Positions 20,732-49,528 of a stretch of DNA of 62,403 bases are shown piece by piece. The position numbers and the translations under genes were made by a program. Where the stretch lies: positions 344,940 to 407,342 of the forward strand of contig NZ_LMUI01000059.1 in assembly GCF_009765995.1 (NCBI RefSeq). Direction: 5' to 3'. Numbering within the stretch: position 1 is the stretch's first letter; each line of letters begins with the position of its first letter. The stretch comes from Methylocapsa sp. S129 (lineage in GTDB: Bacteria > Pseudomonadota > Alphaproteobacteria > Rhizobiales > Beijerinckiaceae). The notes beneath the pieces are model-generated. The model was not told the DNA's origin and did not search any database. It saw only the letters and a list, made by a program, of their open reading frames with translations.

Positions 20732-21835
20732 TCAGCTCCCAAGCCCGAACTCCCGCGCCAGCGCGTCAAGATCGCGGCCTGCCGTTTCATTGCCTGTCAT
20801 CGCCTTGCGCGCCTGGACCAGCGCATCCCTCGCTTTATCCGTTTCATGGAGGACGCCATAGGCGCGAATAAGGCGCAGCCATCCCTGCGCGTCGTCGCCG
20901 TTTTGCGCAAGTCGCTCGGCGAGCCGCTCCACCATGCCGCGAATGGCCGATTGCTGAGCGGCGGGATCAAGCGCGGCGATCGCCGCCGCTTCGCCGCCCG
21001 GCGCCGCGGGCGCGGCCTCAAGGCCGGCCAGACGCTCGCGCACGTTGGCGAGCCAGGGCGCGCCAGCCGGCCCGTCCGCCAGCAGCTTCTGATAGATGGC
21101 GGTCGCCTTCGGCTTATCCCCGTCCTGCTCGGCGGCGAGGCCGATATAATAGCGCGCCTTGGGCAGATCGCCCCGATCGGTCAAAGCCTGCTCGAAGGCG
21201 GCGCGGGCTTGCGCGGTCACGATTCCGCCGGCGGCGGCGGTCAGCGCCTCGCCATAATCGGCGCGCATCGGCGCGTCTTCGCCGAGCAAGCGCAAAGCTT
21301 CGCCAAAGGCTTTCGCCGCATCATCGAAGCGCCCCAGACGCATATAGACCGGGGCGATGACCTTGAAGCCGCGACCATCGTTAGGGTCAGCGATCAGATG
21401 CGCTTCGATCTTGGCAAGCGCGGCTCCAAGGTCGCCGTTCCCAGCAGCGCCGGCGCGCGCGAGGATCGGCTGGTCCGGCAGATTGGGGCTGCCAAGCTTG
21501 AGGTAGAGGCCGAATGTCACCAAGGGAATGGCGACGAAGACGATGACGACGGCCGCGCGCGCGCGCAGGGACGCGCGCCCGTCTCCTGCGCCCGCCGTGG
21601 TTTTGGCCACGTCGCTCGCGGCGATGAGCCGGCGCGCCGCCTCCGCGCGGGCACCCGCCGCCTCGCTCGGCGGCAATTGCCCACGCTCGACGTCGCGATC
21701 GATCTCGGCGAGTTGCGCCTTGTGGAAAGCAATGGCGCGCGCTTGTCCTTCGGGGCCGGAGCGCCGACGCGACAATGGCCAGAGCGCGCACAAAATAGCG
21801 GCGCCGGTCATCAAGGCGAAGGCGACCCACAGCAT
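20732..21835 (-). CDS. ccmI: Cytochrome c biogenesis protein CcmI (CycH)
   Basis: This 367-residue protein binds apocytochrome c and presents it to CcmF/CcmH. It has two membrane helices (residues 2-20 and about 92-112) with an intervening region FHKAQLAEIDRDVERGQL, the family signature, and a TPR-containing periplasmic domain. It is the first gene of the cluster, and an ATG start at 21835 gives the expected length. Confidence 0.92.
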   Translation of the reverse strand: MLWVAFALMTGAAILCALWPLSRRRSGPEGQARAIAFHKAQLAEIDRDVERGQLPPSEAAGARAEAARRLIAASDVAKTTAGAGDGRASLRARAAVVIVFVAIPLVTFGLYLKLGSPNLPDQPILARAGAAGNGDLGAALAKIEAHLIADPNDGRGFKVIAPVYMRLGRFDDAAKAFGEALRLLGEDAPMRADYGEALTAAAGGIVTAQARAAFEQALTDRGDLPKARYYIGLAAEQDGDKPKATAIYQKLLADGPAGAPWLANVRERLAGLEAAPAAPGGEAAAIAALDPAAQQSAIRGMVERLAERLAQNGDDAQGWLRLIRAYGVLHETDKARDALVQARKAMTGNETAGRDLDALAREFGLGS

Positions 21836-21961
21836 TTCAATTGGCCTTTGAACGAACCCGCCCTGAGAACATCATGACGATGGCGATGGCAAGGCGAAAT
21901 TTCCTCGCTTGCCGCATCCCGGCGGCGCAGCAGAGTTTTAGTGATGCTAAAAAGCTACTCT

Positions 21962-40268: not shown

Positions 40269-41249
40269 ATGGTATCTATCTCGCGCCGTATGGCGCTTAT
40301 GGCGACCGTGGCGATCGCCGGTTTCGCCGTCACCGCGGCTATGGCCGATGGCCTGCCGCCCCTCAAGCAGAAAGCAACCTACAAGGTCGGCTTCGCGCAG
40401 ACCGAAAGCAACAATCCCTGGCGCCTCGCGCAGACGGCGAGCATGAAAGACGAAGCCGCCAAGCTCGGCTGGCAGCTTGTCTACACCGATGCGGCCGGCT
40501 CCGCGGCCAAGCAGGTGGCCGACGTCAACAGCATGATCGCCCAGGGCGTCGATGCGATCTTCCTTTCGCCTCGCGAAGAGAAGCCGCTGATCCCCGCCGT
40601 CATGGCCGCCAAGAAGGCCGGCATTCCGCTGTTCCTGATCGATCGCAGCGTCGACCCGAACCTCGCCAAGGCTGGCGTGGACTATGTGACCTTCATCGGC
40701 TCCGACTTCCTGCTCGAAGGCAAGCAGGCTGCCGACTGGCTCGTCAAGAAGGTCGACGGCAAAGGCATCATCCTCGAAATCGAAGGCTCGACCGGCTCTT
40801 CGCCCGCCAACGACCGCAAGAAGGGCTTCGACGACGTCATCGCCCAGAACCCTGGCTTGAAAATTGTCGCTTCGCAGACCGGCAACTTCAACCGCGACGA
40901 AGGCCGCAAGACCGCTGAGGCGCTGTTGCAGGCTCATCCCGAGGCCAACATCATCTTCGCGCACAATGACGAAATGGCGATCGGCGCCATTTCGGCGATT
41001 GAAGCGGCGGGCAAGAAGCCCGGCAAGGACATTCTCGTCGTGTCGATCGACGGAGAGAAGGATGGCTTGCAGGCGATCATCGACGGCAAGATGGGCGCGA
41101 CCGTCGAATGCAATCCGAAGTTCGGTCCGGCCGCTTACGCCGCCGCGATCAAATATTCGAAGGGCGAAAAGATCCCTGCGACGATGACGAACACCGATCG
41201 CTTCTATGACGCCAGCAACGCAGCGGCGAGCATCGCCGACTCGTACTGA
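40269..41249 (+). CDS. Periplasmic sugar-binding protein, YtfQ-like
   Basis: This 326-residue receptor has a signal peptide (MALMATVAIAGFAVTAAMA) and a type I periplasmic fold. It resembles the galactofuranose receptor YtfQ: KVGFAQTESNNPWRLAQTAS, then FLIDRSVD and FAHNDEMAIGAISAIEAAG. It would deliver a furanose-type sugar to the transporter encoded next. A large hairpin follows its stop codon. Confidence 0.87.
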   Translation: MVSISRRMALMATVAIAGFAVTAAMADGLPPLKQKATYKVGFAQTESNNPWRLAQTASMKDEAAKLGWQLVYTDAAGSAAKQVADVNSMIAQGVDAIFLSPREEKPLIPAVMAAKKAGIPLFLIDRSVDPNLAKAGVDYVTFIGSDFLLEGKQAADWLVKKVDGKGIILEIEGSTGSSPANDRKKGFDDVIAQNPGLKIVASQTGNFNRDEGRKTAEALLQAHPEANIIFAHNDEMAIGAISAIEAAGKKPGKDILVVSIDGEKDGLQAIIDGKMGATVECNPKFGPAAYAAAIKYSKGEKIPATMTNTDRFYDASNAAASIADSY

Positions 41250-41276
41250 GGTCATCTAAGTTCATTGGCCTCCCCA

Positions 41277-41317
41277 GGTCCGCCCGCCACTTGACGAATC
41301 TCGTCGGCGGGCGGACC
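41277..41317 (+). other. Large intercistronic hairpin after the binding-protein gene
   Basis: GGTCCGCCCGCC (41277-41288) pairs perfectly over 12 bases with GGCGGGCGGACC (41306-41317), and the loop holds a second 5-bp stem (GACGA/TCGTC). ATTTT follows. Such stems after the receptor gene stabilise its mRNA or partly end transcription, giving more receptor than ATPase. Confidence 0.6.
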
Positions 41318-41333
41318 ATTTTGTTGTCCAGGC

Positions 41334-42908
41334 ATGAGACGGGCTGATATGACCGCGTCGGCGACTTCCCCATCGGTTTCTCCTTTGCTTTCGATGCGTT
41401 CGGTCAGCAAGGCGTTTGGCGGCATTCCAGCCCTCTCCGAGGCCTCGCTTGAGGTCGCTCCGGGCGAAGTCCAAGCGCTAATCGGTCAGAACGGCGCCGG
41501 CAAATCGACCATGATCAAGATCCTGACCGGCTATATCGGTCGCGATAAGGGCGAAATTCTTTTCGACGGCGCCCCTTTCGAAGCGCGCTCGCCGCAGGAT
41601 GCGCAGAACAACGGCATCAGCACGATCTATCAGGAAATCAATCTCGTACCCTTTCGCTCCGTCACCGAGAACATCTGTCTCGGACGGGAAAGCCGCCGCT
41701 ATGGCCTGCTCGATTGGCAAGCGATGCACGAGCAAGCGCGCAAACTGCTGGCGCGATTCAAAATCGATCTCGATGTGCGCAAGCCGTTGCTGCGGTTCAA
41801 CACCGCGACCCAACAGATGGTCGCCATCGCAAGAGCCATTGGCTTCAAGGCGAAGCTAGTCATCATGGACGAGCCGACCTCCTCGCTCGACGAACGCGAA
41901 GTCGCAGTGTTGTTCGACGTGATCCGCCAGTTGAAGGCTGAAGGCGTCTCGGTTGTTTTCGTCAGCCACAAGCTCGACGAGCTTTATGCGGTGTGCGACC
42001 GTGTGACGATCATGCGCGACGGGCGGACGGTGAAGACCGCCGACATGGCTTCCATCGGCAAGCTTGAACTCGTCGCCAGCATGCTGGGACGCGACATCGC
42101 GCAAGTCGCCAAAAGCGCCACCGCCTTTGGCGATCGGCGCGGACGCATCGGCGATGTCGTGCTCACCGCCAACAGTCTGGCCGCCGGTCATAAGGTTCAC
42201 GATGTCTCTTTCAGCGTGAGGCGTGGCGAAATCGCCGGTTTCGCTGGCCTTCTGGGCGCCGGCCGCACCGAAACGGCGCGGTTGGTTTTCGGCGCTGACC
42301 CGTTGCAATCAGGCGCCTTGTCCCTCGACGGCGCGGCGATTCATCCGCGCGAGCCGATCGAGGCGATCAAGGCCGGCATTGGCTTTTCCTCCGAAGACCG
42401 CAAACTGGAAGGCATTGTGCCGGAAATGTCGGTGGCGGAAAATCTGACCCTCGCTCTCATGCCGCAGCTCGCCAGGGCCGGCATCGTCGACGACGCCAAG
42501 CAGCGCGCCATTGTCGAGAAATTCATTCAGCGGCTCGGCGTCAAATGCAGCGGGCCCGACCAGAAAATTCGAGAGCTTTCGGGCGGCAATCAGCAAAAGG
42601 TTCTGTTGGCGCGATGGCTCGCCATGAATCCGAAGTTGCTCATTCTTGACGAACCGACGCGCGGCATCGATGTCGGCGCAAAAGCGGAGATCCAAAGCCT
42701 CATCAAGGAACTTGCCGATCAAGGACTTGCCGTATTGATGATTTCTTCCGAACTCGAAGAAGTGCTCGAAGGCTCCGATCGCGTCTTTGTCTTGCGCGAG
42801 GGGCGAAGCGTCGCCGAATTTTCCCACGCCGAGGCGACCGAAAGCGCCGTCATGACCGCTATGGCGCACGGCGATAGCGACCTCGTCGCCGAAGGGAGCG
42901 CGTCTTGA
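41334..42908 (+). CDS. Sugar ABC transporter ATPase, two domains, YtfR-like
   Basis: This 524-residue protein has two nucleotide-binding domains: Walker A GQNGAGKST at about 53-61, VIMDEPTSSLDERE as Walker B, and in the second half LSGGNQQKVLLARWL and ILDEPTRGID. Domain two has a degenerate Walker A (GLLGAGRTE), as usual in this family. The start is ATG at 41334 or 41349; no strong Shine-Dalgarno decides it. Confidence 0.88.
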   Translation: MRRADMTASATSPSVSPLLSMRSVSKAFGGIPALSEASLEVAPGEVQALIGQNGAGKSTMIKILTGYIGRDKGEILFDGAPFEARSPQDAQNNGISTIYQEINLVPFRSVTENICLGRESRRYGLLDWQAMHEQARKLLARFKIDLDVRKPLLRFNTATQQMVAIARAIGFKAKLVIMDEPTSSLDEREVAVLFDVIRQLKAEGVSVVFVSHKLDELYAVCDRVTIMRDGRTVKTADMASIGKLELVASMLGRDIAQVAKSATAFGDRRGRIGDVVLTANSLAAGHKVHDVSFSVRRGEIAGFAGLLGAGRTETARLVFGADPLQSGALSLDGAAIHPREPIEAIKAGIGFSSEDRKLEGIVPEMSVAENLTLALMPQLARAGIVDDAKQRAIVEKFIQRLGVKCSGPDQKIRELSGGNQQKVLLARWLAMNPKLLILDEPTRGIDVGAKAEIQSLIKELADQGLAVLMISSELEEVLEGSDRVFVLREGRSVAEFSHAEATESAVMTAMAHGDSDLVAEGSAS

Positions 42909-43924
42909 GCCAGGTCCAGACTCAAGGGCCTACAGCGGCGACCCGGCGGATCGATGCGCTGGCTGCGGTCATGCGCTATTCGACGTTAGGAGCGCTTGTC
43001 GCGCTTCTTATCTTCAATGTCCTTTTCACGCGCCATTTCCTGGCGATGCAGACGCTCGACGTCAATCTGACGCAAGTGGCGGCGATCGTCATTGTCGGCG
43101 TCGGCATGACGCTGGTGATCGCGACCGGCGGCATCGATCTTTCGGTCGGCTCGCTTATGGCGATTTCAGGCGCGATCGCGCCGATCATTTTCCTGAACAA
43201 GGTCTTCAATATCGGCGAAATCCACCTCGCCGTCGCGGTCGCGATGATTGTCGCTGTTTTGCTCGCCGGCGCATTCGGCTGGTTCAACGGTTGGCTGATT
43301 ACGCGTTTCCGCATTCAGCCGATCATCGCGACCCTGGTGTTGTTCATCGCCGGGCGCGGTATCGCGCAGGTGATGACCAACGGGAATTTGCAGCCCTTCA
43401 AACTGGATGCGTTCCAGTGGATCGGCCTTGGCCGCCTGTTCGCTATAACGGACGTGTATCGCGGCCTGCCGATCCAAGTCGCGATCATGATCGTGCTCGT
43501 CGTGGTCGCCGCCTGGGTGCTCAAGCGCAGCCTGTTCGGCCGACAGATACTCGCCATTGGCGGCAATGAGCGCGCCGCGCGCCTGTCAGGCGTGCCGGTC
43601 GCGCAAGTCAAGCGCTGGGTCTATTGCATCAGCGGCCTTTGCGCCGGCGTCGCCGGACTGGTGGTCATCGCCATCAACTCGTCGAGCGACGCCAACCAGG
43701 TCGGGCTCGGCATGGAGCTTGACGCCATCGCCGCGGTCGCGGTCGGCGGCACGCTGCTCAGCGGCGGGCGCGCGACCATCACCGGCACGCTGATCGGCGC
43801 GCTGATCATTCAACTTGTGCGCTACACGATGCTCGCCAATGGTGTCCCCGACGACGTCGCCAAACTCGCCAAGGCGGCGTTGATTGTGGCCGCGGTCTGG
43901 CTCCAGGGCCAAGGGAGGGCCTGA
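42905..43924 (+). CDS. Sugar ABC transporter permease, YtfT-like
   Basis: This 339-residue inner-membrane protein has about nine membrane segments and the family stretch VIATGGIDLSVGSLMAISG. It starts with TTG at 42905, in the stop codon of the ATPase gene, so translation is coupled. Confidence 0.87.
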   Translation: MSQVQTQGPTAATRRIDALAAVMRYSTLGALVALLIFNVLFTRHFLAMQTLDVNLTQVAAIVIVGVGMTLVIATGGIDLSVGSLMAISGAIAPIIFLNKVFNIGEIHLAVAVAMIVAVLLAGAFGWFNGWLITRFRIQPIIATLVLFIAGRGIAQVMTNGNLQPFKLDAFQWIGLGRLFAITDVYRGLPIQVAIMIVLVVVAAWVLKRSLFGRQILAIGGNERAARLSGVPVAQVKRWVYCISGLCAGVAGLVVIAINSSSDANQVGLGMELDAIAAVAVGGTLLSGGRATITGTLIGALIIQLVRYTMLANGVPDDVAKLAKAALIVAAVWLQGQGRA

Positions 43925-43927
43925 GCC

Positions 43928-44902
43928 GTGAAAAAAACATCGATCGCATCTGTTCTCTCAAGCCAGGGCGTGCTGATCGCTTTGGCGGCGCTCATCCTGT
44001 TCGGCTGGCTGCGTTACGATCATTTTCTCGGGCTGTTCAACATAACCTCGGTGCTCCGTTACAATTCGATGTTCGCACTGGTGTCGCTGGGCATGTGCTT
44101 CGTCATCATGACTGGCGGCATCGATTTGTCGGTCGGCGCCACCGCGGCGCTCGGCAGCGTCGTCTCGGCGCTGCTCAGTCCCTACGGCACAATGGCCGGA
44201 ACGCTCGGCGGCGTCGGCGCGGGGCTCTGCATCGGCCTCATCAACGGCTTTGTCATCGTCAGGCTGCGCATCCTGCCCTTTATCGCCACGCTCGCCGCGA
44301 TGCTGGCGGCGAACGGCGCGGCGCTGTTGCTCGCCGGGGATCAATCGGTCTCGGTGTCCTACGACAGCGGGTTCACCGATCTCGGCCAGGGCGACTTTTA
44401 CAATATTCCGATCCCCGCGCTGATTGCCGCGATCCTTTACGTCGTGGGTTCGATCGTTCTCAATTTCACCAGCTCAGGCCGTACGGTGCTGGCGATCGGC
44501 GGCAATGAAGATGCGAGCCGCATGATGGGTCTACCGGTCAACCGCATCAAGTTTCTGGTCTATGTCGTGAGCGGCGGCCTGTCGGGATTGGCCGGCGTCA
44601 TCCTCGCGTCCCAATTTGGCGCGGGACAGCCGATCGAAGGCGTCGGTTGGGAATTGTTCGCCATCGCCTCGGTCGTCGTCGGCGGCACCTTGCTGACCGG
44701 CGGCCTCGGTTCGGTCGGCGCCACTTTGGCCGGCGTGATGCTGCTCGGTCTGATTTTCAACGTGCTGAATTTCGAGAACGGCATGGGATTCATCTCCCTA
44801 TCCGCCTATTGGCAGTCGGTGATCCGCGGCGTGTTCCTGTTGATTGTCGTTATCCTGCAATCGCAACTCACAGGGCGGGCGGAGCGCGTGGAAGCCCGCT
44901 AA
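43928..44902 (+). CDS. Sugar ABC transporter permease, YjfF-like
   Basis: This 324-residue inner-membrane protein is the second permease of the pair, with VIMTGGIDLSVGATAALGS and VVGGTLLTGGLGSVG. It starts at GTG, four bases after the YtfT-like gene. Two permeases in series are the mark of the YtfQRT-YjfF type. No sugar-metabolism gene or regulator is encoded next to it, so the substrate is unconfirmed. Confidence 0.87.
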   Translation: MKKTSIASVLSSQGVLIALAALILFGWLRYDHFLGLFNITSVLRYNSMFALVSLGMCFVIMTGGIDLSVGATAALGSVVSALLSPYGTMAGTLGGVGAGLCIGLINGFVIVRLRILPFIATLAAMLAANGAALLLAGDQSVSVSYDSGFTDLGQGDFYNIPIPALIAAILYVVGSIVLNFTSSGRTVLAIGGNEDASRMMGLPVNRIKFLVYVVSGGLSGLAGVILASQFGAGQPIEGVGWELFAIASVVVGGTLLTGGLGSVGATLAGVMLLGLIFNVLNFENGMGFISLSAYWQSVIRGVFLLIVVILQSQLTGRAERVEAR

Positions 44903-44905
44903 ATT

Positions 44906-46198
44906 CTAGCTGTCGATCCCCTCCACCGCCGAAATCTCAATGCCAAAGCCCGCCAGCCCGACATATTTGCGCGGGCTGTCGGTGCGCAGGCGGATCGAGG
45001 AGACGTCGAGGTCGCGCAGGATTTGCGCGCCAAGACCGATCTCCCGCCATTGATTGGCGCGCGCGCCCTCCGAACCCGCCGGTTCGGCGCCGGCGAGATT
45101 GGCGGGCACGCCCGCCGAACCGTCGCGCAAATAAACCAGCACGCCGCGCCCCTCGTCCTTGAAGCGCTGCAAAGTGCGCGGGATAATGCCGCCGCCGAAT
45201 ATGTCGCCCAGAATATCGGCCCGATGCAGCCGGGCGGGCACATCGCGCCCGTCGCCCACATGGCCATGAACGAAGGCGAAGTGCAGGACGGAATCGAAAG
45301 GCGTGCGATAGGCATAGCCTGAGAGTTCGCCGATCGGCGTCTTGACCGGGAACGTCCCAACGCGCTCGACCAGCTTTTCGCGCGACTGCCGGTAGGCAAT
45401 CAGGTCGGCCACCGAAATGCGCTTGAGATTGTGCTTGGCCGCGAATTCCGCGATCTGCGGTCCGACCATCACCGTGCCATCGTCATTGGCCAATTCACAA
45501 ATCACCGCGACCGGCGGGACAGCGGCAAGTTTACAAAGATCGACGGCCGCTTCCGTATGGCCTGAGCGCATCAGGACGCCGCCTTCCTTGGCGATTAGCG
45601 GAAAGACATGGCCGGGGCGGACGAAATCATTCGCGCCCATATTGCCGTTGGCGAGCGCGCGCACGGTATTGGACCGCTGCTCGGCCGAAATGCCCGTCGT
45701 CAAGCCGTGGCGCGCGTCGACGGAAACAGTGAAGGCGGTGCCAAGCGGCGCATCGTTCATCGCCACCATCGGGTTGAGATTCAAGCGCTGCGCGTCCCGC
45801 GCGGTGAGCGGCGCGCAAACGATGCCGCAGCAATTGCGGATGATGAAAGCCATTTTCTCGGGCGTGCAATGCGAGGCGGCGACGATCAGGTCGCCTTCGT
45901 TTTCGCGATCGTCGTCGTCGGTGACGACGACGATTTCGCCCCGCGCGAAGGCTTCGACCGCCTGGGTGACGTTATGCGACATTTCAGTTCCCTGGTTTGG
46001 AGCGGGGGCAAGCGCGAGAAAATCGTTGGGCGTAACGGCGCCGCGCGTCTGGGCGAGGATTTGCTCGGCCGTCTCGCGCGAAACCCAGGCGCCCTCGTCC
46101 TTGCAGATCTGCGTGACCGCGCCAGGCGAAACGCCGATACGGCGCGCAAAATCCGAACGCTTGACGCCATTGCGGATGAGCCAGTCGGCGAGCTTCAT
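44906..46198 (-). CDS. ribB: 3,4-dihydroxy-2-butanone 4-phosphate synthase with N-terminal HTH and degenerate GTP cyclohydrolase II domain
   Basis: This 430-residue protein has three parts. Residues 1-62 form a Cro/YdaS-like helix-turn-helix (MKLADWLIRNGVKRSDFARR, then GVSPGAVTQICKD). Residues 73-275 are RibB, which makes the four-carbon riboflavin precursor from ribulose 5-phosphate; visible are DDDDRENEGDL, CGIVCAPL and GHTEAAVDL. Residues 280-430 align with GTP cyclohydrolase II but contain no Cys, so the three zinc ligands are gone and that activity is unlikely. An internal ATG at 45982 (MSHNV) has AGGGA seven bases upstream and could give an enzyme without the HTH. A perfect 19-bp palindrome lies 24 bases before the main start. 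Convergent with the YjfF-like gene, 3-base gap. Confidence 0.88.
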   Translation of the reverse strand: MKLADWLIRNGVKRSDFARRIGVSPGAVTQICKDEGAWVSRETAEQILAQTRGAVTPNDFLALAPAPNQGTEMSHNVTQAVEAFARGEIVVVTDDDDRENEGDLIVAASHCTPEKMAFIIRNCCGIVCAPLTARDAQRLNLNPMVAMNDAPLGTAFTVSVDARHGLTTGISAEQRSNTVRALANGNMGANDFVRPGHVFPLIAKEGGVLMRSGHTEAAVDLCKLAAVPPVAVICELANDDGTVMVGPQIAEFAAKHNLKRISVADLIAYRQSREKLVERVGTFPVKTPIGELSGYAYRTPFDSVLHFAFVHGHVGDGRDVPARLHRADILGDIFGGGIIPRTLQRFKDEGRGVLVYLRDGSAGVPANLAGAEPAGSEGARANQWREIGLGAQILRDLDVSSIRLRTDSPRKYVGLAGFGIEISAVEGIDS

Positions 46199-46221
46199 GG
46201 CGAAGACATAGGATGAAAGAG

Positions 46222-46240
46222 TCTTTAGTTCAACTAAAGA
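46222..46240. promoter_or_regulatory. Perfect 19-bp palindrome upstream of the HTH-RibB gene
   Basis: TCTTTAGTT and AACTAAAGA flank a single central base in a fully symmetric 19-bp site. It sits in an AT-rich stretch (46205-46280) that should hold the ribB promoter, 24 bases before the start codon. The HTH domain of RibB is the obvious candidate ligand. Confidence 0.65.
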
Positions 46241-47230: not shown

Positions 47231-48556
47231 ATGCCGCAGATCTTCGATCTCATCCTTCGCGGCGGAACCGTCGTCAATCAGGATGGAATCGGCGCGCGCG
47301 ACATCGGCGTCGCACGCGGCCGGATCGCGGCGATCAACGACCTCGCCCAGGCTTCGGCCGGCGAAATCATCGACTGCCGCGGCCTGCATATCCTGCCCGG
47401 CGTGATCGACAGCCAGGTGCATTTCCGCGAGCCCGGCGCGACGCATAAGGAGGATCTGGAATCGGGCTCTCGAAGTGCGGCGCTTGGCGGCGTCACCGCC
47501 GTGTTCGAAATGCCCAATACCGATCCGCTGACCGTTTCGACCGCCGCGCTCGAAGACAAACTGGCGCGCGCCAAGAACCGCATGCATTGCGATTATGCGT
47601 TCTGGGTCGGCGGCACGCATGACAATGTCGGCGACATTCCCGAACTCGAGCGCCTGCCGGGCGCGGCCGGCATCAAAGTGTTCATGGGCTCCTCGACAGG
47701 CAAGCTGCTCGTCGCCGACGATGCGGGCGTGCTCGAAATCCTCAAGAAGACGCGCCGCCGCGCCGCCTTCCACAGCGAGGACGAAGCGCGGCTCAACGCC
47801 CGCAAAGGACTGCGGGTCGCCGGCGATCCCACCTCCCACCCGGTCTGGCGCGACGAAATCGCCGCGCTCCAATGCACGCAGCGCCTCATCGCGCTCGCCC
47901 GGCAAGCGCATGCGCGCGTCCATGTCCTGCATATTTCGACATTGGAGGAGATCGATTTTCTCCAAGACGCCAAGGATGTCGCGACTTGCGAGGCGACGCC
48001 GCATCATTTGACGCTGGGCGCCGAGGATTATGCGCGCCTTGGAGCGAAATTGCAGATGAACCCGCCGGTGCGCGGCGCCCAGCATCGCGAAGGAATCTGG
48101 CGCGGAATCGCGCAAGGGATCGTCGACGTGCTCGGCTCCGATCACGCGCCCCATACGCTTGCCGAAAAGGCCAAGCCCTATCCCGATAGTCCGTCCGGCA
48201 TGACAGGCGTGCAGACGCTTGTTCCCGTCATGCTCGACCATGTCGCCGCTGGACGCCTCACTTTGCAGCGTTTTGTCGACCTGACGAGCGCCGGCCCGGC
48301 GCGCATCTTCGGCATCGCCAGCAAGGGCCGCATCGCCGCCGGCTATGACGCCGATTTCACCATCGTCGACCTCAAGCGCGTCGAGACGATCCGCGACGCC
48401 TGGATCGCCTCGCACTGCGGCTGGACGCCCTATGACGGGAAGACAGTCATCGGCTGGCCGGTTGGCACGATTGTGCGCGGGGCCCGCGTGATGTGGGAAG
48501 GTGAGTTGACAGCGCCCGCGCAAGGGGCGCCGGTGCGTTTCGGCGAAGCGCTTTAA
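47231..48556 (+). CDS. pyrC: Dihydroorotase (class I)
   Basis: This 441-residue metal-dependent amidohydrolase would close carbamoyl-aspartate to dihydroorotate in pyrimidine synthesis. Visible are DSQVHFREPG (60-69) at the metal site, EMPNTDPLT, FMGSSTGK, FHSEDEARL, LHISTLEEIDFL and GSDHAPHT. The first His of the usual HxH motif is Gln, a variant I recall from related annotated dihydroorotases, and the catalytic Asp is kept. It is cotranscribed with the nucleoside hydrolase (15-base gap). Confidence 0.88.
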   Translation: MPQIFDLILRGGTVVNQDGIGARDIGVARGRIAAINDLAQASAGEIIDCRGLHILPGVIDSQVHFREPGATHKEDLESGSRSAALGGVTAVFEMPNTDPLTVSTAALEDKLARAKNRMHCDYAFWVGGTHDNVGDIPELERLPGAAGIKVFMGSSTGKLLVADDAGVLEILKKTRRRAAFHSEDEARLNARKGLRVAGDPTSHPVWRDEIAALQCTQRLIALARQAHARVHVLHISTLEEIDFLQDAKDVATCEATPHHLTLGAEDYARLGAKLQMNPPVRGAQHREGIWRGIAQGIVDVLGSDHAPHTLAEKAKPYPDSPSGMTGVQTLVPVMLDHVAAGRLTLQRFVDLTSAGPARIFGIASKGRIAAGYDADFTIVDLKRVETIRDAWIASHCGWTPYDGKTVIGWPVGTIVRGARVMWEGELTAPAQGAPVRFGEAL

Positions 48557-48571
48557 TCGGAGAAACTCGCA

Positions 48572-49528
48572 ATGGCGCGCAAACTTATTCTGGACTGCGA
48601 TACCGGCACTGACGACGCGGTCGCCATTATGCTCGCGGCGCTTCATCCCGATCTTGAACTTCTGGGCGTCGCCACCGTCAACGGCAATGTCGAAGTGGCG
48701 CGATGCACGAATAACAGCCTCCGCACCCTCGACTGGATCGGCCGCGGCGACATTCCCGTCTATGAGGGGCTGGCCAAGCCGATCGTGCGCAGCGACTTTC
48801 CCGTGCCGCGCGCGCTAAAGCGCGACGCGAAGGTTCATCTCGCCACCCTGCCCTTTCCAGAAGCCCGCTCCATCAAGCAGCCGCTTTCCGCCCCCGAATA
48901 TCTCGTGCACACATTCGCCAAAAGCCCGGGAGAAATCGTGCTGGTCGCGGTCGGACCGCTGTCCAATCTCGCCGCCGCCACCGCCCTCGATCCGGCTTTC
49001 GCGGGCAATGTATCGGAACTCATCATCATGGGCGGCGCGATCGACAAATCGAACATCACGCCTTCGGCCGAGTTCAATATCTGGGCCGATCCCGAGGCCG
49101 CGGCGGTCGTGATGGAGGCGGCGTTTCCCAAGATCACGCTGGTCCCGCTCGACGCCACCCATCAAGCCCTCATTTCCCTCGATCAATGCGCGCAATTGCG
49201 CGCGCTCGGCACCAATGCTGGCGAGGCCGCCGCGCAACTCGTCGAATTCAGGATCGGGGGCTATGAGGCGAATCAGCCGACCGGCGTGCCGCAAACCGCG
49301 CCCGTCCACGACGCCGTCTGCATCGCCGCGCTCGTCGATCCCCAGGTGATCGATACGAAATTCCTCAATGTCGTGATCGAGACACGCGGCGAATATACGA
49401 TGGGCCGCACCGTAGTCGATCACGAGAAGCGGACGACGCGCGCGCCCAATTGCCATGTCGCGCTCAACGCCGACCGGGCGAGGTTTTTCGATATGCTGAT
49501 GACGACGTTCGCCAAACGTACGACATAG
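48572..49528 (+). CDS. Nucleoside hydrolase of the inosine-uridine family
   Basis: This 318-residue enzyme has the Ca2+ site LDCDTGTDDAVAIM near residues 7-20 and the late His-Asp motif in APVHDAVCIAAL, so all usual residues are kept. It would free ribose and a base from nucleosides. It directly follows pyrC with GGAG before the ATG, which suggests a pyrimidine salvage role. It is about as long as RihA/RihC enzymes. Confidence 0.9.
   Translation: MARKLILDCDTGTDDAVAIMLAALHPDLELLGVATVNGNVEVARCTNNSLRTLDWIGRGDIPVYEGLAKPIVRSDFPVPRALKRDAKVHLATLPFPEARSIKQPLSAPEYLVHTFAKSPGEIVLVAVGPLSNLAAATALDPAFAGNVSELIIMGGAIDKSNITPSAEFNIWADPEAAAVVMEAAFPKITLVPLDATHQALISLDQCAQLRALGTNAGEAAAQLVEFRIGGYEANQPTGVPQTAPVHDAVCIAALVDPQVIDTKFLNVVIETRGEYTMGRTVVDHEKRTTRAPNCHVALNADRARFFDMLMTTFAKRTT

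Follow-up and report, generated by a model that had tools for sequence, protein, structure and literature searches.

The literature searched gives no answer as to what controls ribB in Hyphomicrobiales in place of an FMN riboswitch, and the ribB locus of Methylocapsa sp. S129 raises this question together with a proposed answer, namely the enzyme itself. The window (the whole stretch of DNA that was analysed, 62,403 nucleotides) carries ribB on the minus strand at 44906-46198, where the sequence reads as an ATG at 46198, a stop codon at 44908-44906 and a product of 430 residues. No match at the Rfam gathering level was found within the window, no FMN riboswitch was found in the organism's own genome with stricter filters, and none was found in the genomes of its own family (0/25), in keeping with the original prediction that ribB is not preceded by such a switch. 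The same prediction read the gene as encoding an enzyme that represses its own transcription, and the sequence comparisons described here support this reading.

The enzyme is predicted to be a RibB with a cysteine-less GCHII-like domain, that is, of the RibBX type. Pfam recovers DHBP_synthase (E 1.7e-80) and GTP_cyclohydro2 (E 1.4e-25) in the window protein, and the DHBP synthase domain is complete, with its conserved motifs present and a TIGR00506 score of 240.7 bits (cut-off 177.45). GCHII carries a zinc cysteine motif, and because the GCHII-like domain of the window protein contains no cysteine it should be of the inactive RibX type; among 123 HTH-A proteins this region has no cysteine in 87, one in 34, two in 1 and three in 1. 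RibBX is the name given in Proteobacteria to a RibB joined to an inactive GCHII-like domain, and the window enzyme shares this architecture, although to our knowledge RibBX lacks a helix-turn-helix (HTH). The claim of a RibB enzyme fused to an HTH therefore stands as far as the fusion and the RibB part are concerned, and needs amending in that the enzyme is RibBX and not plain RibB. The enzyme for the first riboflavin intermediate is not evident in this genome (G000, 98.8% complete), because its sole PF00925 match is the cysteine-less domain itself; a comparable gap, with an undiscovered GCHIII, is described for Sinorhizobium in PMC9478397. As to the neighbourhood (40269-44902 and 47231-49528), a sugar-type ABC transporter operon (Peripla_BP_4, BPD_transp_2) is convergent with ribB, a GcvT/CAF17-like gene lies directly upstream of it, and an amidohydrolase and a nucleoside hydrolase follow slightly farther away.

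Table 1. Features of the ribB locus, with positions in the window.
Feature	Position	Strand	Basis
Putative operator, perfect palindrome TCTTTAGTTgAACTAAAGA	46222..46240	-	Sequence; conserved class TTnAGTnnnACTnAA upstream of HTH-fused genes
Predicted -35 TTGAAC, in the middle of the operator	46228..46233	-	Sequence position; aligned profile of 123 regions
Predicted -10 TATGTC, 17 nt after the -35	46205..46210	-	Inference; 6 nt, then the ATG
First ATG and predicted transcription start (leaderless mRNA)	46196..46198	-	Aligned profile; sequence
N-terminal HTH domain, residues 1-62	46013..46198	-	Sub-threshold Pfam match; alignment; AlphaFold2; Foldseek
Recognition helix (residues 25-33) with residue 30 (Gln, codon 46109-46111)	46100..46126	-	AlphaFold2; co-variation
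Variable linker, residues 63-72, with weak Shine-Dalgarno AGGGA (45989-45993)	45983..46012	-	Sequence; relatives
Internal ATG, residue 73, predicted start of the HTH-less enzyme	45980..45982	-	Relatives; aligns with the region where HTH-less orthologues begin
DHBP synthase (RibB) domain, residues 79-269	45392..45964	-	Pfam; conserved motif DDDDRENEGD
GTP cyclohydrolase II-like domain without cysteines (RibX), residues 279-423	44930..45364	-	Pfam; sequence

A Cro/YdaS-like HTH in frame with RibB had been proposed for the first 62 residues, and both the reading frame and a structural model confirm it. With an alignment of 39 HTH sequences as input, AlphaFold2 folds the domain alone into a five-helix HTH (helices at residues 3-10, 14-21, 25-33, 41-50 and 57-60; mean pLDDT 89.9). 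The best Foldseek matches of this model are SinR, HigA, YdaS and similar DNA-binding domains at a TM of about 0.7-0.77, with E values of 0.05 and higher, as is usual for so small and common a fold, and the nearest solved chains by sequence profile are phage Cro proteins (E 0.003-0.005). The Pfam HTH_3 match of the window protein (residues 7-48) reaches 17.5 bits, which is below the gathering cut-off of 23 and counts against self-regulation; scores above the cut-off among the scanned fusions come from one protein of the A2 subtype (L165, 34.1 bits), one of type B (L022, 32.5 bits) and the one of type D (L171, 40.2 bits). As modelled, the window domain fits an XRE/Cro-type DNA-binding fold with a recognition helix.

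Fusions of this kind appear to be widespread across Hyphomicrobiales. Within the genus, 9 of the 10 other genomes contain a match spanning residues 1-429, and in the tenth (G006) the match falls into two pieces that jointly cover the HTH as well. In the order-wide sample a match from residue 1 occurs in at least 58 of 297 genomes, 7 of which carry the divergent A2 subtype, and the carriers include Microvirga, Methylobacterium, Bosea, Xanthobacter, Ancylobacter, Labrys, Methylocella, Rhodoblastus and Lichenibacterium. Outside the order but in the same class, three genomes have an HTH fusion, each with an operator scoring 10/10. The HTH start codon is GTG and not ATG in the Methylobacterium-type genes L069, L071-L073 and L124. 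Among plasmid records, none of the 15 matches listed of 105 aligns from residue 1; the plasmid NZ_LR594663.1 of Variovorax sp. RA8 encodes a RibBA-type protein with 38.7% identity to the window protein from residue 10 onward, and this protein may also have an N-terminal extension.

The palindrome predicted upstream of the gene is indeed perfect. It is the sole match in the window at up to 3 mismatches, with none in 100 shuffles, and a perfect TTTAGTnnnACTAAA occurs once in the 6.87-Mb genome, at the ribB site. Operators were scored over the ten fixed positions of TTnAGTnnnACTnAA within 100 nt upstream of the gene, with a pass at 9 or more. By this measure 117 of 123 distinct HTH-A genes possess an operator, a count in which the motif was derived from part of the set being counted; the contrast with HTH-less orthologues and control windows is independent of this. 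None of the 44 sampled HTH-less orthologues passes, a set made up of 21 fetched loci and 23 hand-picked from listed rows and hence not a random sample, nor do any of 2019 control windows taken around those HTH-A genes or any of 13 genes whose HTH is of type A2, B, C or D. Conservation of the palindrome only where the HTH is fused had been put forward as a check on the self-regulation reading, and this is the pattern observed. Neither of two outcomes named beforehand as refuting that reading, a palindrome lacking conservation and an FMN riboswitch upstream, was encountered. Left out of the counts are 3 duplicate loci and 5 more, the truncated L075 and L178 with its doubtful frame, and 11 later-fetched loci, inspected in part, are left out of the operator, tree and promoter counts. 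The six HTH-A genes that miss score 8 (four genes), 7 and 5, the lowest being L002 and L004 of the organism's own genus, and these count against self-regulation. In a FastTree phylogeny built from 180 enzyme cores, the presence of the HTH changes 17 times and that of the operator 22 times, and the independent pairs on this tree (6 supported, 5.8 concordant on average, none opposed; median p 0.031) are concordant for HTH and operator in 6/6 cases in most pairings. It is thus very probable, as far as such comparisons reach, that the HTH binds DNA at the ribB palindrome.

Two Microvirga species (L095 and L099) have a ribBX with neither HTH nor operator, and both are present at the remaining named Microvirga loci for which the 5' end is available. 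The sequence upstream of L095 resembles what we take to be the end of a chorismate synthase gene, and on loss of the HTH ribBX may in this case ride on the chorismate synthase operon.

The position of the palindrome relative to the promoter bears on what such binding would do. When the 123 upstream regions are aligned on the first start codon, TTG is seen at -35 to -33 (frequencies 0.89, 0.80 and 0.63), TA at -12/-11 (0.73 and 0.82) and T at -7 (0.59), with C at -1 (0.85) and A at +1 (0.96), which is what a sigma-70 promoter would look like if the start codon were also the start of transcription. A Shine-Dalgarno score of at least 11 before the first start is found in 3/123 genes. Leaderless mRNAs are known from Alphaproteobacteria, and PMC4117421 gives their number as 375 for Caulobacter and 171 for Sinorhizobium meliloti. 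A scan of the window for a strict sigma-70 consensus did not find the promoter, and this counts against self-regulation. The aligned profile nevertheless makes it highly likely that the ribB transcript is leaderless and begins at the first ATG. A reading of the palindrome as an RNA hairpin is unlikely because the predicted transcript starts downstream of it.

The gene appears to contain a second point of entry for ribosomes. An internal start at 45982 with a Shine-Dalgarno of its own had been predicted, and of this claim the ATG stands and the site is conserved among relatives, whereas the window's own Shine-Dalgarno is weak (score 8) and is surpassed in most relatives. In each gene the internal start was taken as the start codon with the best Shine-Dalgarno in a window of 21 codons, and controls were chosen by the same rule. 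A score of at least 11 is reached in 101/123 genes (82%) compared with 10% of controls (n=1718), and a start codon is present in all 123 real windows compared with 78% of controls. It could be argued that the domain binds DNA and regulates while the internal start is unused, its Shine-Dalgarno being a relic from before the fusion, so that one long protein is made. Such a relic is conceivable because HTH-less orthologues begin in the same region as the internal start. The weakness of the window's own site also speaks for it, and part of the signal reflects the amino acids kept, as synonymous codon controls have a mean score of 9.46 compared with the 12.12 observed. However, the eight residues before the internal start share a mean identity of 15% over random pairs (73% in the RibB core), and relics in such a linker should decay, yet the start codon and a strong Shine-Dalgarno persist; moreover, the ribosome site is kept with both ATG and GTG starts. 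A single long protein is consequently regarded as unlikely, and because the internal start has a conserved Shine-Dalgarno it is likely that two products, with and without the HTH, are made from the one gene.

The main rival to autorepression is activation from a distal site. The fused HTH could bind the palindrome and activate, or both activate and repress from a distal site at -67 and a proximal site at -40. At a looser threshold of 7/10 a site lies near -40 in 108 of the 123 genes, near -67 in 67 and at both places in 59, and this abundance of double sites favours activation, as do Ancylobacter and Bosea, which are among the genes where the distal site is the better match and from where activators can work. 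On the other hand, the best site covers the -35 in the window, Microvirga, Methylobacterium and others, which is the usual place for repression. The A2 subtype, whose recognition helix contains QGRVSQ, also argues for repression. Its genes carry ATTAGCnnnGCTAAT-type palindromes at -24/-23 in 7/7 cases (5 exact, one with T at position 6 and one ending in AAA), and these sites finish some 10 nt short of the start codon, at the place expected for a -10. Activation is thus held to be improbable, and repression of its own ribB promoter by HTH-RibBX is, on this geometry, highly probable.

An alternative is that the palindrome belongs to a separate transcription factor, the HTH of RibB having another partner or being a relic. 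A blind mutual-information scan of 52 residues against 6 half-site positions (312 pairs) gave the largest excess information, 0.83, for residue 30 and operator position 3, the next values being 0.68, 0.65 and 0.61. With Ala, Gly or Ser at residue 30 the operator is C..G in 69/70 genes, with Gln it is T..A in 25/41 and C..G in 2, and with Leu the left arm has G in 5/5. Two aspects of these data count against self-regulation: the operators of Gln30 proteins are mixed (16/41 are not T..A), and the next-ranking HTH residues, 46, 50 and 26, follow position 3 nearly as well, which implies that shared ancestry contributes to the co-variation. A further point against is that, once corrected for the tree, residue 30 leaves too few pairs to reach significance (0-4 concordant per test, 0 opposed). 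The weak Pfam score of the window HTH would suit a separate factor, but this explanation is disfavoured because such a factor would not track the sequence of RibB's HTH, whereas operator position 3 follows residue 30 best of all pairs, HTH and palindrome are gained and lost together, and the A2 proteins come with a palindrome of their own. It is accordingly rated very improbable. An HTH that is no more than an upstream extension due to chance or mis-annotation, with the real protein beginning at residue 73, would account for a first start without a Shine-Dalgarno but is scarcely credible given an HTH sequence conserved across families and a promoter-like pattern whose position suits leaderless initiation at the first codon of the HTH.

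A strict form of the operator, TTTCAGTnnnACTGAAA, was found in 15 HTH-A genomes at 7 sites in 7 genomes, 6 of them at ribB, and the reversed control pattern gave no sites in the same 15 genomes; in 8/15 no site passing the strict pattern was found, which counts against self-regulation. In the organism's own genome perfect and one-mismatch sites together number 3 per strand compared with 8 for the reversed control pattern, so that a broad regulon is unsupported there, with one perfect site and near-matches below the control. One such near-match, with the core TTTAGTGATGCTAAA, lies in the window at 21937-21951, 102 bases upstream of a minus-strand frame at 20732-21835, and is probably due to chance because of the reversed-control count. 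ribB is thus a near-exclusive target in the genomes searched.

The seventh strict site lies upstream of an EamA transporter gene (PF00892). Relatives of this transporter (E <= 1e-30) occur in 4/16 genomes searched, two of which (G313 and G143) are 97% alike. The four EamA loci, made up of the seventh site and the three orthologous loci detected, have operators scoring 10, 10, 9 and 10 of 10 about 280-320 nt upstream. In these four genomes operator and gene have an FMN riboswitch (102-114 bits) between them, which in L223 directly follows the operator. EamA genes with both elements (L218 and L220-L223) belong to two genera of one family. FMN riboswitches are described in PMC4418817 for the RibN riboflavin importers of Alphaproteobacteria, and the EamA transporter is possibly a RibN-like flavin transporter. 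Across 60 HTH-fused genomes the FMN riboswitch (RF00050) is absent from 52 and present in 8, four times at EamA genes and four times at lumazine synthase genes without an operator (three identified by Pfam and L225 by a similar reading frame). It never occurs at ribBX, and control of ribB by this switch was therefore rejected for the window, the organism's own genome and all 60 genomes.

The same place on RibBX is occupied elsewhere by HTHs of a different sequence, namely type B (L022, L030, L084 and L108), type C (L023) and type D (L171), which suggests that the enzyme has acquired unlike HTH domains several times independently. Type D has a perfect palindrome, GTTGCCAAAATGGCAAC, in its upstream region, and L030 has GCTTGCGAAATCCGCAAGC upstream (shuffle p 0.07), and no significant inverted repeat was found upstream of L022, L084, L108 and L023. 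A pairing of the type B, C and D HTHs with operators of their own is only suggestive.

The fusion, the operator tied to the HTH, the co-variation of the recognition helix, the promoter-like geometry, the conserved internal start and the near-exclusive target, all obtained by computation, can be accommodated in a single circuit. RNA polymerase would start at the first ATG to give a leaderless mRNA whose first product is HTH-RibBX. RibB is a dimer, and HTHs paired through its core would bind the palindrome with one helix per half-site, the equivalent half-site positions being 10 bp apart or about one helical turn. Because the -35 lies inside the operator, bound HTH-RibBX would block the promoter, and a rising enzyme level would switch the gene off. 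Ribosomes that enter instead at the internal Shine-Dalgarno and ATG would yield RibBX without the HTH and so supply enzyme, and mixed dimers of the two products could weaken repression. At ribB this HTH-operator circuit would replace the FMN riboswitch. As a whole, an autorepressing HTH-RibBX made from a leaderless mRNA together with a second, HTH-less product is considered likely, with fairly high confidence, and the chances that a metabolite signal acts on HTH-RibBX are about even. A wider proposal is put forward tentatively: a flavin-homeostasis regulator made from an enzyme, with internal ribosome entry on a leaderless mRNA, where mixed dimers set the degree of repression, flavin or substrate state sensed via RibB or the inactive RibX tunes it, unlike HTHs were captured and the circuit spread to the EamA gene.

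Comparable arrangements exist, and a likeness in principle to BirA and the archaeal RbkR had been pointed out with the original prediction; it is apt as an analogy, although neither enzyme domain is related. BirA acts on an inverted-repeat operator with a known co-repressor, whereas HTH-RibBX has no known co-repressor, and we know of no internal start in BirA. Like HTH-RibBX, BirA has an N-terminal DNA-binding domain fused to a vitamin-pathway enzyme, and is described in PMC5343134 as both repressor and ligase, but its enzyme is unrelated to RibBX and its regulons centre on bio genes, with autoregulation found in that paper only in Desulfovibrionales. RbkR likewise is a flavin-pathway enzyme with an N-terminal HTH and is listed as 'bifunctional as gene regulator and enzyme' in PMC8305020, but is a riboflavin kinase of archaea and not a DHBP synthase. 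Pfam finds neither a biotin protein ligase domain nor a riboflavin kinase domain in the window protein, the enzyme domains present being DHBP_synthase and GTP_cyclohydro2. HTH-RibBX has the predicted make-up of a bifunctional enzyme-repressor, an HTH-enzyme fusion with a conserved operator in the target promoter, and is in kind with BirA and RbkR while being a member of neither family. XRE-type regulators of a riboflavin gene promoter in Alphaproteobacteria are represented by wBmxR1 and wBmxR2, which bind the Wolbachia ribA promoter and, according to PMC3518464, differ in being free-standing proteins without a fusion that regulate a reporter positively. FMN riboswitch control of ribB concerns the same gene and presumably serves the same purpose, but the window ribB lacks the riboswitch and the control proposed here is exerted on DNA by the enzyme itself. 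A literature search of titles and abstract starts found no paper on an HTH-RibB fusion, which is weak evidence of novelty because subscription papers lay mostly outside the search.

If these predictions hold, DHBP synthase would join the few vitamin-pathway enzymes that also act as DNA-binding regulators. The family offers a natural series in which HTH and operator co-vary along with gain and loss of the domain, and the EamA genes that carry both operator and riboswitch make control at the DNA and at the RNA level comparable at one gene. With two starts in one gene, the ribosome's choice between them may determine how much regulator is made relative to enzyme. In these bacteria, production of the enzyme seems to be governed by the enzyme itself, a task that an RNA switch performs in other bacteria.
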